DNA of 7,053 bases from a bacterium. GTDB taxonomy: Bacteria > RBG-13-66-14. This document shows positions 2,397 through 6,828 of this stretch, one piece after another. The stretch's first letter is position 1. Each line of letters begins with the position of its first letter. The position numbers and the translations under genes were made by a program. Under the pieces are notes generated by a model. It saw only the letters and a program-made list of their open reading frames with translations. It did no database searches and was not told the origin of the DNA. The stretch spans positions 1-7,053 of the forward strand of contig DATKYS010000066.1 in assembly GCA_035528375.1 (NCBI GenBank), written 5' to 3'.

Positions 2397-3425
2397 ATGA
2401 AGGTCCTGCGCATGGATAAAAAGCACCTCGGCACCCTCCTGGAAATGCTCCGGGGGTGGGGCGAGGTCCACGTGCCGGTGAAGCACGGGGTGAACTCGTA
2501 CCGCTGGGAGCCGTACACCGACCTCGAAAAGGTCGCCTACGACGCCCTGCGCACCGTCATCCCGGCGAAGAAGTACTTCTACCGGCCCCGGGAGACCATG
2601 TTCCGCTTCGACGCGCGGCGGGGCTTCGAGGCGGAAACCGCCGGTCTCGCCGAGCGCCTGGTCCTCTTCGGCATCCACGCCTGCGGGCTGCACGCCCTGG
2701 AAACCCTGGACAACATCTTCGCCGGCCGCTACGCGGACAACTACTACTTCACCCGGCGCGAGAACATCATGATCGTCGCCACCAGCTGCATCCCCGACGA
2801 GCACTGCTTCTGCAAGTCCATGGGCACCGACGCCATAGACGAGGGCTTCGACCTTTTCCTGACCGACCTGGACGACGCGTTCCTGGTCGGGGTGGGCACC
2901 TCGCGGGGGGACGACGTGGTCTCCGGCCGCCCCGAGCTTTTTTCCGAGGTGGACGAGGAGTTCACGCAGCGCTACCTGGAGTTCCGACGGCGGCGGGAGC
3001 GGGCCTACTGCCTGACGCTGGAAATCAGCGACCTGCCCACGATTCTGGACCTGGAGTACGAGAGCCCCATCTGGGACAAGCTGGCCGAACGCTGCCTCTC
3101 CTGCGGCTCCTGCTCCATGGTCTGCCCGACCTGCTACTGCTACGACGTCAACGACACGCTGGAGCTTGTCGGCGGCGGCACGCGCTGGCGGGAATGGGAC
3201 TGCTGCCTCTTCCGGGAGCACGCGCTGGTGGCGGGGGGTCACAACTTCCGAGAGGATCGCGGTCAGCGGCTCAAGCACCGCTACCTGCACAAGCAGCAGG
3301 CGTTTCTGGGCGATTTCGGCCGCGCGGCCTGCGTCGGCTGCGGGCGCTGCATCGTCAGTTGCCCGGCGAAGATTGACTACGTCGAGTGCCTGAAGATGCT
3401 CAGGGGGGACCAGGCCCATGCTTAG
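2397..3425 (+). CDS. hydB: Group 3b [NiFe] hydrogenase (sulfhydrogenase) beta subunit, 4Fe-4S dicluster protein
   Basis: A protein of 342 aa that carries electrons between the flavin (gamma) subunit and the hydrogenase module in the cytoplasm. The C-terminal half has two ferredoxin-type motifs: C233-x2-C236-x2-C239-x3-C243-P and C312-x2-C315-x2-C318-x3-C322-P. Further cysteines at 96, 131, 137, 139, 246, 248, 269 and 270 suggest additional cluster ligation in the N-terminal and middle regions. Related proteins include the beta subunit of P. furiosus sulfhydrogenase (about 367 aa) and anaerobic sulfite reductase subunit A. The ATG at 2397 is chosen because it follows the extended -10 box and an AAAGG-like ribosome site. 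The frame is open upstream to 2202 but there it runs through repeats. An in-frame ATG at 2412 (Met6) is an alternative. It is the first gene of the operon and overlaps hydG by 8 nt, implying translational coupling. The name follows archaeal sulfhydrogenase usage, not [FeFe] maturation. Confidence 0.92.
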   Translation: MKVLRMDKKHLGTLLEMLRGWGEVHVPVKHGVNSYRWEPYTDLEKVAYDALRTVIPAKKYFYRPRETMFRFDARRGFEAETAGLAERLVLFGIHACGLHALETLDNIFAGRYADNYYFTRRENIMIVATSCIPDEHCFCKSMGTDAIDEGFDLFLTDLDDAFLVGVGTSRGDDVVSGRPELFSEVDEEFTQRYLEFRRRRERAYCLTLEISDLPTILDLEYESPIWDKLAERCLSCGSCSMVCPTCYCYDVNDTLELVGGGTRWREWDCCLFREHALVAGGHNFREDRGQRLKHRYLHKQQAFLGDFGRAACVGCGRCIVSCPAKIDYVECLKMLRGDQAHA

Positions 3426-4284
3426 AGACCAGCGGCTCTCGTTCAGGCAGGCGGCCAACCCGTACCAGCCGCACCTGGCCCGGATCGTGGCCGTCAAGCC
3501 CCAGGACCGCGACCACAAGCTCTTCCAGATCCGCTTCGAGGACCGCGCGATCGCGGAGAGCTTCCGCTCGCGCCCGGGCCAGTTCGTCGAGCTCTCGGTC
3601 ATCGGTACCGGCGAGTGCCCCATCTCCATCTCCAGCTCGCCGACGCGGACGGGGATAGTGGAGCTGTGCGTCCGGCGGACGGGCCGGGTGACCTCCGCGC
3701 TGTTCAGGCTGCCCACCAACTCCCTCATCGGCCTGCGCGGCCCCTACGGCAACGGCTACCCCGTGGAGAAGATGGAGGGCGGCGACCTGCTGCTGGTGGC
3801 CGGCGGACTGGGGATGGCCCCGCTGCGGAGCCTGCTGTGGTACGCCCTGGACGACCGCGCCGACTTCCGCCGCGTCATTTTATTCTACGGCTGCCGCGAA
3901 CCGAAGGAGGTCCTCTTCCGCGACGAGATGGCCGGCCTCGTATCCCGGGAGGACCTCGAGTGCCACCTCACCGTGGACACCGACCCCGACAAGACCTGGC
4001 CCTACAACGTGGGGGTCGTCACCACGCTCTTCGACCAGGTGGAGGGGCTGAACCCTGAGGAGACCTACGCCGCCATCTGCGGCCCGCCCGTGGTCTACAA
4101 GTTCGTCGTCGAGAAGCTCCTGGAGCTCAACTTCTCCAAGGGGCGGATTCTGATGAGCCTGGAGCGGATGATGAAGTGCGGCGTGGGCAAGTGTCTGCAC
4201 TGCAGCATCGGGCACAAGTACACCTGCCTGGACGGGCCGATATTCACCTATTGGGACGCCATCAATTTACGGGAATCCATTTAA
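3418..4284 (+). CDS. hydG: Group 3b [NiFe] hydrogenase gamma subunit, FAD/NAD(P)-binding reductase
   Basis: A 288-aa ferredoxin-NADP reductase-like protein that exchanges hydride with NAD(P)H through FAD. The flavin domain shows RPGQFVEL (52-59) and PISISSSP (68-75). The nucleotide domain shows VAGGLGMAPLRSL (127-139) and CGPP (221-224). The C-terminal cysteine motif C254-x4-C259-x2-C262-x7-C270 is the iron-sulfur ligand set of PyrK-like and sulfhydrogenase gamma proteins. Length matches the P. furiosus subunit (about 292 aa). The start overlaps the end of hydB, with AGGGGGG 9 nt upstream. Its last eight codons use AAT, TTA, GAA, TCC, ATT and TAA, unlike the GC-rich codon choice of the rest of the gene. 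A second copy of this 3' end, in GC-rich codons, lies 92 nt downstream. The name is sulfhydrogenase HydG, unrelated to the radical-SAM HydG of [FeFe] hydrogenases. Confidence 0.94.
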   Translation: MLRDQRLSFRQAANPYQPHLARIVAVKPQDRDHKLFQIRFEDRAIAESFRSRPGQFVELSVIGTGECPISISSSPTRTGIVELCVRRTGRVTSALFRLPTNSLIGLRGPYGNGYPVEKMEGGDLLLVAGGLGMAPLRSLLWYALDDRADFRRVILFYGCREPKEVLFRDEMAGLVSREDLECHLTVDTDPDKTWPYNVGVVTTLFDQVEGLNPEETYAAICGPPVVYKFVVEKLLELNFSKGRILMSLERMMKCGVGKCLHCSIGHKYTCLDGPIFTYWDAINLRESI

Positions 4285-4295
4285 AAGGAAATAAG

Positions 4296-4376
4296 GTGCC
4301 GACACGGAGGCGACGCGCGCCGACACGCCGCGGCCGCGCCGCTTGGGACGCGATCAACCTGCGCGAGAGCATCTGA
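4296..4376 (+). CDS. Possible 26-codon micro-ORF, arginine-rich peptide ending in the hydG tail sequence
   Basis: A GTG at 4296, with AGGA 6 nt upstream (4286-4289), opens a frame of 26 codons. After the initiator it encodes two 7-residue units, PTRRRRA and PTRRGRA, from a 21-nt direct repeat (GCCGACACG at 4298 and 4319), then A and WDAINLRESI. The good ribosome-site spacing makes translation possible. More probably it is a by-product of the rearrangement that left a duplicated hydG 3' end here. No function is proposed. Confidence 0.2.
   Translation: MPTRRRRAPTRRGRAAWDAINLRESI
4344..4376 (+). pseudogene. Vestigial second copy of the hydG 3' end (WDAINLRESI-stop)
   Basis: These 33 bases encode exactly the last ten residues and stop of the intact hydG (4252-4284) but differ at 10 nucleotides, all synonymous: A GCC/GCG, N AAT/AAC, L TTA/CTG, R CGG/CGC, E GAA/GAG, S TCC/AGC, I ATT/ATC, stop TAA/TGA. 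Upstream homology ends at the Trp codon, as the intact gene has TAT and this copy GCT. The copy is in another frame relative to hydG. Because its codons fit the rest of the gene better, it may be the original tail, displaced when the present AT-rich tail was acquired. It could also be the end of a deleted paralogue. Confidence 0.7.
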
Positions 4377-4728: not shown

Positions 4729-5520
4729 ATGGACAAGCCGAAAATCGCCGTCTACGGCCTTACCTGCTGCGCCGGCTGCCAGCTCAACATCCTCAACTGC
4801 GAGGACGAGCTCCTGGAGCTGGCCCAGGCGGTGGACATCAAGAGCTTCATCATGGCCCAAACCGGCAACGACGACTGCGAGGTGGACATCGCCTTCGTCG
4901 AGGGCGCGGTGGCCAGCGAGCGGAACCTGAAGCAGTTGAAGGACATCCGCGAACGGGCCGGGCTTTTGATCGCCCTGGGCACCGGCGCGTGTTGGGGCTG
5001 CGTCCAGGCCATGCAGAACGACGTGCCGCGGAAGGAGCTTCTCACCGAGGTATACGGCAAAGAGGTTCTGGAAAACCCCTTCTTCGAGTGCTTCGAGCCG
5101 AAACCCCTGCGCGACTTCGTAAAGGTGGATTACGAGATAGTGGGCTGCCCCATCGAGCGGAGCCAGTTCCTCCAGGCGGTGGCGTCGCTCCTGCACGGGG
5201 ACCTGCCACTCCTGCCCACCTACGCCGTGTGCACCGACTGCAAGTTCCGGGAGAACGAGTGCCTGTTGATCGAGCGGGGGGAGATGTGCCTGGGGCCGGT
5301 GACGAAGGCCGGCTGCGGGGCGCGCTGCCCCAGCAACAACCTCCCCTGCGAGGGCTGCCGGGGCCCGGTCTATGAGGCCAACTTCGCCTCCGAGGTGGAC
5401 GTGCTCCTGGACAAGGGCTATTCGATAGAGGACATAAAACAGGCCATGAGCCACTTCGGCGGCCCGCCCTCCGACGAGGCGCTGCGGACCAGGAAATTCA
5501 AGGGCACCGAGCTGCCGTAA
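4729..5520 (+). CDS. hydD: Group 3b [NiFe] hydrogenase small (delta) subunit
   Basis: A 263-aa protein of the NADH-quinone oxidoreductase 20 kDa / F420-non-reducing hydrogenase small-subunit family that pairs with the large subunit and relays electrons from the NiFe site. Proximal-cluster ligands are visible as C14-x2-C17 (in TCCAGC), the GTGACWGC segment (C88 or C91) and C140 (in VGCP). A C-terminal extension carries eight cysteines (168, 171, 178, 187, 196, 200, 207, 210), enough for two more Fe-S clusters. This fits the three-cluster delta subunit of sulfhydrogenases. Length agrees with P. furiosus HydD (about 261 aa). There is no twin-arginine signal, so it is cytoplasmic. The stop is 12 nt before hydA, so the two are clearly co-transcribed. 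It is separated from hydG by a 444-nt repeat-filled gap, unusual for this operon. Confidence 0.94.
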   Translation: MDKPKIAVYGLTCCAGCQLNILNCEDELLELAQAVDIKSFIMAQTGNDDCEVDIAFVEGAVASERNLKQLKDIRERAGLLIALGTGACWGCVQAMQNDVPRKELLTEVYGKEVLENPFFECFEPKPLRDFVKVDYEIVGCPIERSQFLQAVASLLHGDLPLLPTYAVCTDCKFRENECLLIERGEMCLGPVTKAGCGARCPSNNLPCEGCRGPVYEANFASEVDVLLDKGYSIEDIKQAMSHFGGPPSDEALRTRKFKGTELP

Positions 5521-5532
5521 GGGGAAGAAAGC

Positions 5533-6828
5533 ATGAGCCGGACCATTACCGTGGAGCACCTCTGCCGCGTCGAGGGGCACGGCGGCGTCACCATCGAGCT
5601 CGAGGACGGCGCCGTCAAGAGCGTGCGCATGGACATCTACGAGGGGCTGCGCTTCTTCGAGAGCTTCTTGAAGCGCGTCCCCTGGGCCGACATCCCCGAG
5701 GTGGCCTGCCGCATCTGCGCCATCTGCTCCGGCGTGCACAACGTGGTGGCCTCGCAGGCCATCGAGGACGCCTTCGGGGTGACGGTTTCGGAGCAGGTGC
5801 GGCTCCTGCGGCGGCTCTTCGTCCACGGGGGCAACATCGAGTCGCACGCCCTGCACATATTTTTGTTGGCCCTGCCGGACCTCGTGCAGCCGCGCTGCAA
5901 CTCCATCATCGAGCTGGCCGAGGACCTGCCCGACCCCGCGCGCATCGGCCTGGACATCAAGAAGTGCGGCAACGAGATCCAGGACTTAATAAGCGGGCGC
6001 GAGATTCACCCCTGCAACACCAAGCTCGGCGGCTTCGGCCGCATCCCGGAAAAGGACGTCTTCAAGTACCTGCGCGACCGGCTCGAGGCCGTCCTGGAGA
6101 ACGCCAGGGCCCTCGTGCCGCTGATTAAGGGTCTGGAGCTCCCCGGCTACCTCACCGCCGAGGGCACCTACATCGGGCTGAGGCCCTCCGGCGACGCCTA
6201 CGGCTACATGGGGGACCACATCGCCGCCAGCGACGGCACCCTTACCGACGTCCACGAGTACAAACGGGTGACCAACGAGTACGTCGTGCCGTACAGCCAC
6301 GCGAAGTTCTCCGCGTACGAGGGGAAGCCGTACACCGTGGGGGCGCTGGCCCGGGTCAACCTCTTCGGCGAGGCGTTGCACGGCGGGGCGAAGACGGTCG
6401 CCGGGCGCCTGGGATTCGCGACGCCGGTTTATAACATCTTCCACAACACCACGGCCCAGTTCATCGAGCTGGTGGACTCCGTCGAGGACTCCATCCAGAC
6501 CATCAACGCGATTCTGGCGCATTACGCGCCGGTGGAGCCGACGCCGGAGATCCGGCCCAGGGCGGGCCGGGGGACGGCGGGCATCGAGGCCCCCCGCGGC
6601 ACCCTCTACCACTCCTACGCCTTCGACGCCGACGGGCGCTGCACCGACGTGGACATCGTCACACCCACCTGCCAGAACCTGGCCGCCATGGAGCGCGACA
6701 TCCGGGCCATGGTCGAGGCCAACCCGGGGTTTTCCGACGAGGAGATCCACTTCCACGCGGAGATGATAGTCCGGGCGTACGACCCCTGCATCTCCTGTTC
6801 GGTGCACCTGTTGAACCTCTCCGCCTGA
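5533..6828 (+). CDS. hydA: Group 3b [NiFe] hydrogenase large (alpha) catalytic subunit
   Basis: The 431-aa subunit holding the NiFe(CN)2CO site that splits or makes H2. The N-terminal motif RICAICSGVH (60-69) supplies Cys62 and Cys65; the C-terminal DPCISCSVH (417-425) supplies Cys419 and Cys422. The RVEGHG segment (Glu14), the EAPRGTLYHS segment (352-361) and the HGG at 98-100 are other expected family landmarks. Ala64 occupies the position that is Gly in the common RxCGxC motif. The sequence continues six residues (LLNLSA) past His425, so a maturation endopeptidase is expected to trim a very short tail after nickel insertion. Length matches P. furiosus HydA (about 428 aa). The ATG follows AAGGGGAAG at 5519-5527. 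It is the last gene of the operon; repeats begin straight after the stop. The name follows sulfhydrogenase usage, not [FeFe] HydA. Confidence 0.96.
   Translation: MSRTITVEHLCRVEGHGGVTIELEDGAVKSVRMDIYEGLRFFESFLKRVPWADIPEVACRICAICSGVHNVVASQAIEDAFGVTVSEQVRLLRRLFVHGGNIESHALHIFLLALPDLVQPRCNSIIELAEDLPDPARIGLDIKKCGNEIQDLISGREIHPCNTKLGGFGRIPEKDVFKYLRDRLEAVLENARALVPLIKGLELPGYLTAEGTYIGLRPSGDAYGYMGDHIAASDGTLTDVHEYKRVTNEYVVPYSHAKFSAYEGKPYTVGALARVNLFGEALHGGAKTVAGRLGFATPVYNIFHNTTAQFIELVDSVEDSIQTINAILAHYAPVEPTPEIRPRAGRGTAGIEAPRGTLYHSYAFDADGRCTDVDIVTPTCQNLAAMERDIRAMVEANPGFSDEEIHFHAEMIVRAYDPCISCSVHLLNLSA

Follow-up and report, generated by a model that had tools for sequence, protein, structure and literature searches.

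The hydG gene of a sulfhydrogenase-like NiFe hydrogenase operon has very probably lost its native last codons to a foreign tail that is now in use, the native tail having been displaced downstream, as judged from codon usage and comparison with relatives. The locus is best explained by the integration of an element at the 3' end of hydG, followed by loss of this element (probability roughly 0.5). The stretch of DNA analysed (the window) is an entire contig of 7053 bp, derived from a genome (G000) of 2.63 Mb in total. According to family profiles, it carries the operon hydB-hydG-hydD-hydA (beta-gamma-delta-alpha) of a group 3b-like enzyme, with a gene for an S9 peptidase on the opposite strand. 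Every one of the hydrogenase subunits scored below the NCBIfam equivalog cut-offs, so that the assignment to a subtype and substrate is tentative. The positions of all features are listed in Table 1.

Table 1. Features of the hydrogenase operon and of the duplicated hydG 3' end (positions in the window).
Feature	Position	Strand	Evidence
hydB-like iron-sulfur (beta) subunit of a sulfhydrogenase-like NiFe hydrogenase	2397..3425	+	NCBIfam ShyB/HydB, E 6e-98/5e-95; Pfam Fer4_22
Intact hydG, FAD/NAD(P)-binding gamma subunit with the probable replacement tail at its end	3418..4284	+	NCBIfam cytochrome-c3 hydrogenase gamma, E 7e-99, ShyC, HydG; 77% identity to HydG of G005
TTGGGACGC, left copy of the core that is identical at both junctions; proposed site of crossover and left attachment-like site	4251..4259	+	Direct comparison; G001 reads CTGGGACGC at the same place
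In-use, foreign-spelled hydG tail WDAINLRESI-stop	4252..4284	+	Lowest of 1849 ten-codon windows; common to G001; AATTTACGGGA also in hydG of G368
Spacer between the copies; putative element remnant or deletion scar	4285..4321	+	Unrelated to the same interval of G001 (shuffle P = 0.35); flanks ~94% identical
Block GACACGCCGCGGCCGCGCCGC just 5' of the orphan, not hydG-homologous; proposed to flank the right attachment-like site on the element side	4322..4342	+	20/21 identical in G001
Orphan, probable native hydG tail after displacement; consists of the core TTGGGACGC and native codons	4343..4376	+	5 differences from the single tail of G005, versus 10 for the in-use copy
hydD-like delta subunit (follows hydG in the operon)	4729..5520	+	NCBIfam HydD/ShyD, E 9e-60/1e-57
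hydA-like NiFe large (alpha) subunit	5533..6828	+	NCBIfam HydA/ShyA, E 1e-92/6e-85

The intergenic regions of the contig (1900-2340, 4377-4660 and 6830-7053) are densely filled with short GC-rich segments that follow the pattern CCCCTCTCCC...GGGGTGAGGG. The sequence GGGTGAGGG occurred 84 times in a 343.7-kb sample of the genome, versus 6 times for the reversed control, and thus looks like a genome-wide dispersed repeat. Another intergenic repeat (GGACTCRGAATCCGCGTGACACGCCGTTAAAACGATCGAAGCCCGCCGCACCTC) was present twice, ~120 bp apart, on contig C15 of the same genome (L098, about 10940-11160).

The peptide WDAINLRESI, followed by a stop codon, is encoded both at the end of hydG (TGGGACGCCATCAATTTACGGGAATCCATTTAA) and in the orphan, at 4344-4376 (TGGGACGCGATCAACCTGCGCGAGAGCATCTGA). 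The original prediction had reported these two copies and 10 synonymous differences among their 33 bases, which proved exact on direct comparison, but the shared block begins one base earlier than reported (4251 and 4343). No third copy was detected in the G000 genome. Chance had been discounted as a source of the recoded copies, and indeed the peptide was retained in none of 2,000,000 simulations with 10 random substitutions; synonymous single changes make up 19 of the 99 in the tail. The serine codons of the two copies, TCC and AGC, lie two bases apart, with either one-base step altering the amino acid. The in-use copy is AT-rich as described, with a measured GC content of 30.6% across 4261-4296. 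The contrast in GC content between the copies is real, yet alone it is not decisive.

Among 14 genomes of the phylum, this tail was found in only three. G001, a congener with 94% nucleotide identity across the hydG fragment, contains the same two tails, separated by 60 bp as compared with 59 bp in the window. The two-tail layout is not an assembly accident of one MAG, and the event most simply predates the split between G000 and G001. G005, which belongs to another genus of the same family (77% HydG protein identity), has an empty site with a single tail of orphan-like spelling and with hydD 53 bp past the hydG stop. This tail is joined directly to the residues FTY, the arrangement anticipated for the GC-rich tail of a relative lacking the event, and its spelling identifies the orphan as native. 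The distance between the in-use tails of G000 and G001 is 4, that between their orphans 1, and that between in-use and orphan tails 8-10; relative to the G005 tail, the orphans of G000 and G001 have distances of 5 and 4, and the in-use tails of 10 and 11, respectively. The in-use tails of G000 and G001 cluster with each other, and their orphans with the tail of G005.

Based on the codon usage of the genes in the window, the in-use tail (spelled AATTTACGGGAATCCAT) is the least typical of 1849 ten-codon windows. Its low score results mainly from AAT and TTA, each of which accounts for ~1% of the codons of its amino acid. The P value for its synonymous choices is ~7e-4, versus 0.73 for the orphan, whose codon usage is ordinary. 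A search of 386 genomes identified one further hydG gene, from another phylum (G368; 51% GC, 64% protein identity) that ends in TGGGACGCGATGAATTTACGGGAGTTGATCTGA, like the in-use spelling. hydG-derived spellings of this type hence occur in other places as well; the likeness comprises only eleven codons, too few to name a donor. In many deltaproteobacterial hydG homologues (L007-L039), the codons of a C-terminal KEAI (AAGGAGGC) resemble the Shine-Dalgarno sequence of the next gene, so that their tail spelling is likely constrained by the neighbouring gene.

The likeness between the two copies starts abruptly at a core of only 9 nt, YTGGGACGC, which is identical at both junctions (TTGGGACGC at 4251 and 4343; CTGGGACGC twice in G001). 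The 5' side of the core is the hydG body for the left copy and unrelated GC-rich DNA (GACACGCCGCGGYCGCGCCGC) for the right copy, and the flanks 3' of the two copies also differ. Immediately before TGG, both copies of G000 have T and both copies of G001 have C, and the third base of the alanine codon (in-use/orphan) is C/G in the window and G/C in G001. In the ~38 bp after the in-use stop, the alignment of G000 with G001 was no better than that of shuffled sequences (P = 0.35), with DNA of ~94% identity on either side; this interval, unrelated between the two species, was thus deleted or exchanged after their split. Just upstream of the orphan (4298-4339) lie two 21-base units starting with GCCGACACG, arranged head to tail and 76% alike; the second unit, but not the first, is matched in G001. 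The block at 4322-4342 had no other match better than 3 mismatches across seven genomes of the family.

According to the favoured explanation, an integrating element would have entered the 3' end of hydG in the common ancestor, before the separation of G000 and G001, by crossover at the core. It would have brought a substitute 3' end specifying the same ten residues in other, more AT-rich codons, leaving hydG intact, while the native last codons would have come to lie beyond the element. Subsequent loss of the element body would have produced two attachment-like half-sites ~60 bp apart, one with the tail now in use and the other with the stranded native one. The hydG frame is open to 4284 and closes with an atypical, foreign-grouped tail, which would be the contribution of the element, and the end on the distal side (4343-4376) clusters with the lone tail of G005. 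An unrelated segment of ~38 bp within flanks that are 94% alike fits the separate loss of a larger insert. Campbell-type homologous insertion, by contrast, does not fit, since it would have placed hydG sequence before the orphan, where there is none.

Of the replacement by a diverged homologue that the original prediction proposed, the core, i.e. a swapped tail and a displaced native one, is supported by G005 and by the grouping of the tails; the agent is supported only in part. Replacement by an integrating element agrees with the geometry, but an integrase or element body was not found at the locus. Recombination between paralogous operons, also put forward, is not supported for surviving paralogues: the one closely related paralogue, on contig C40 (40% identity), has AEIDELPPDF as its C-terminus and so cannot be the tail source, and the orphan lacks hydG homology upstream of YTGGGACGC.

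We infer the carrier to have been a site-specific integrating element, as well as its type and its loss, and we consider the chances for such an agent to be about even. The 59-60 bp between the copies contain no integrase, excisionase or other element gene; an intact element was not found in the 14 genomes of the phylum, viral contigs, phages or plasmids; and tyrosine recombinases gave just two matches in G000, neither at the hydG locus. Because an integrase-bearing element is absent between the half-sites, the locus represents at most a remnant and was not filed as an intact member of the e14/icd type. The near-equal spacing of the copies (59 and 60 bp) is not as two independent deletions predict and counts against element loss. 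This spacing, the T/C base before TGG and the pattern at the alanine third base are left unexplained by the best explanation; the single-base cases may be coincidence.

A serious, albeit unlikely, rival does without a dedicated mobile element: a diverged hydG, acquired horizontally from a G368-like lineage, would have contributed a foreign tail with a little flank through recombination or template switching, both junctions being set by the microhomology TGGGACGC. Natural hydG genes with such a spelling do exist, as seen from the G368 tail (TACTGGGACGCGATGAATTTACGGGAG). However, both junctions would need to have used one and the same 9-base microhomology, there is no foreign-looking hydG sequence upstream of the tail, and hydG of G368 passes straight into hydD, with no flank resembling that of the window. 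Distinctly improbable is an insertion of the homing-endonuclease type, in which a mobile endonuclease gene with its own C-terminal segment would have replaced the tail and later been deleted. The fungal mitochondrial cases show the same signature, with a native tail like that of a close relative and an inserted tail that is diverged in DNA and nearly identical in protein (PMC3630166), but the 59-60 bp between the hydG tails contain no remnant or ORF of such kind. An apparent wholesale exchange of the interval after the split at near-constant spacing and the species-matched base before TGG led us to consider that very small inserts, each bringing a synonymous replacement for the gene end, may still be exchanged at the end of hydG. 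Ongoing exchange at the core would also account for the species-matched base before TGG and the alanine third base; the reading is nevertheless very improbable. We know of no bacterial hydrogenase in which a tail was replaced by a homing endonuclease.

The orphan is probably not a functional gene, going by its context in the two species. There is only a very small chance that it forms the 3' end of a real short gene (e.g. GTG 4296 to 4376, 26 aa) whose C-terminus resembles that of HydG. The GTG directly follows AAGGAAATAAG, and all three differences between G000 and G001 in the 54-nt block sit at third positions of this frame, but the conservation of 51/54 bases is within neutral expectation (P = 0.11). 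In G001, moreover, the frame lacks a start codon in common with the window, is preceded by an unrelated peptide and stands in another register to hydG; the block had no family match in NCBIfam or Pfam. Use of the orphan by read-through or frameshifting was rejected, as it is in the hydG frame in G001 and one base off in the window. An RNA element was rejected as well (folds no better than shuffles, z 0.25 and 0.75; no Rfam match), and no dispersed repeat containing the insert was found. Hardly credible, finally, is an old tandem duplication of the hydG tail with synonymous drift of the in-use copy, which would give the same peptide from both copies but should have repeated the downstream flank, which differs, should have let the unselected orphan drift, which stayed native-like while the in-use copy changed most, and lacks a synonymous path between TCC and AGC.

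In the 343.7-kb sample of the genome, 464 long GC3-rich frames were inspected for a similar event; three exact or near-exact tail repeats were present, none of them synonymously recoded in the manner of hydG. The hydG tail is a clean new example of an already known type of event, with hydG as a new target, and does not amount to a new system. With it, a hydrogenase subunit gene from a sparsely sampled phylum joins the protein genes with a 3' end replaced by an integration-like event. Such events are recognisable after loss of the element from the stranded synonymous tail alone, which provides a rule for genome-wide searches: a gene whose last codons are repeated downstream in another synonymous spelling points to lost islands and their attachment sites.

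In E. coli, e14 integrates inside the 3' end of icd and supplies its final codons, with the displaced native end lying beyond the element (PMC6379469). The geometry of the hydG 3' end is the same, with a tail of probable foreign origin in use and the native end probably displaced. However, e14 displaces 163 bp and the prophage is present, whereas 33 bp are replaced at hydG and no element body or integrase is left. In the mobile ORF/C-terminal hybrids of fungal mitochondria (Allomyces atp6; Glomus atp6, atp9, cox2 and nad3), foreign C-terminal codons are used and the native C-terminus is stranded downstream (PMC3630166). These mitochondrial hybrids contain an endonuclease ORF between the copies, which the hydG locus lacks; as in hydG, their native copy is like that of a close relative and the inserted copy is diverged in DNA, but little in protein. 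Genomic islands at the 3' ends of tRNA and tmRNA genes are delimited by a regenerated target and a displaced fragment that mark their two ends (PMC4383910), and the 3' end of trmE is an island target as well (PMC8409611). The hydG locus differs in having a hydrogenase gene as the target, a synonymous instead of an identical replacement and no island, but a regenerated target and a displaced fragment are likewise seen.
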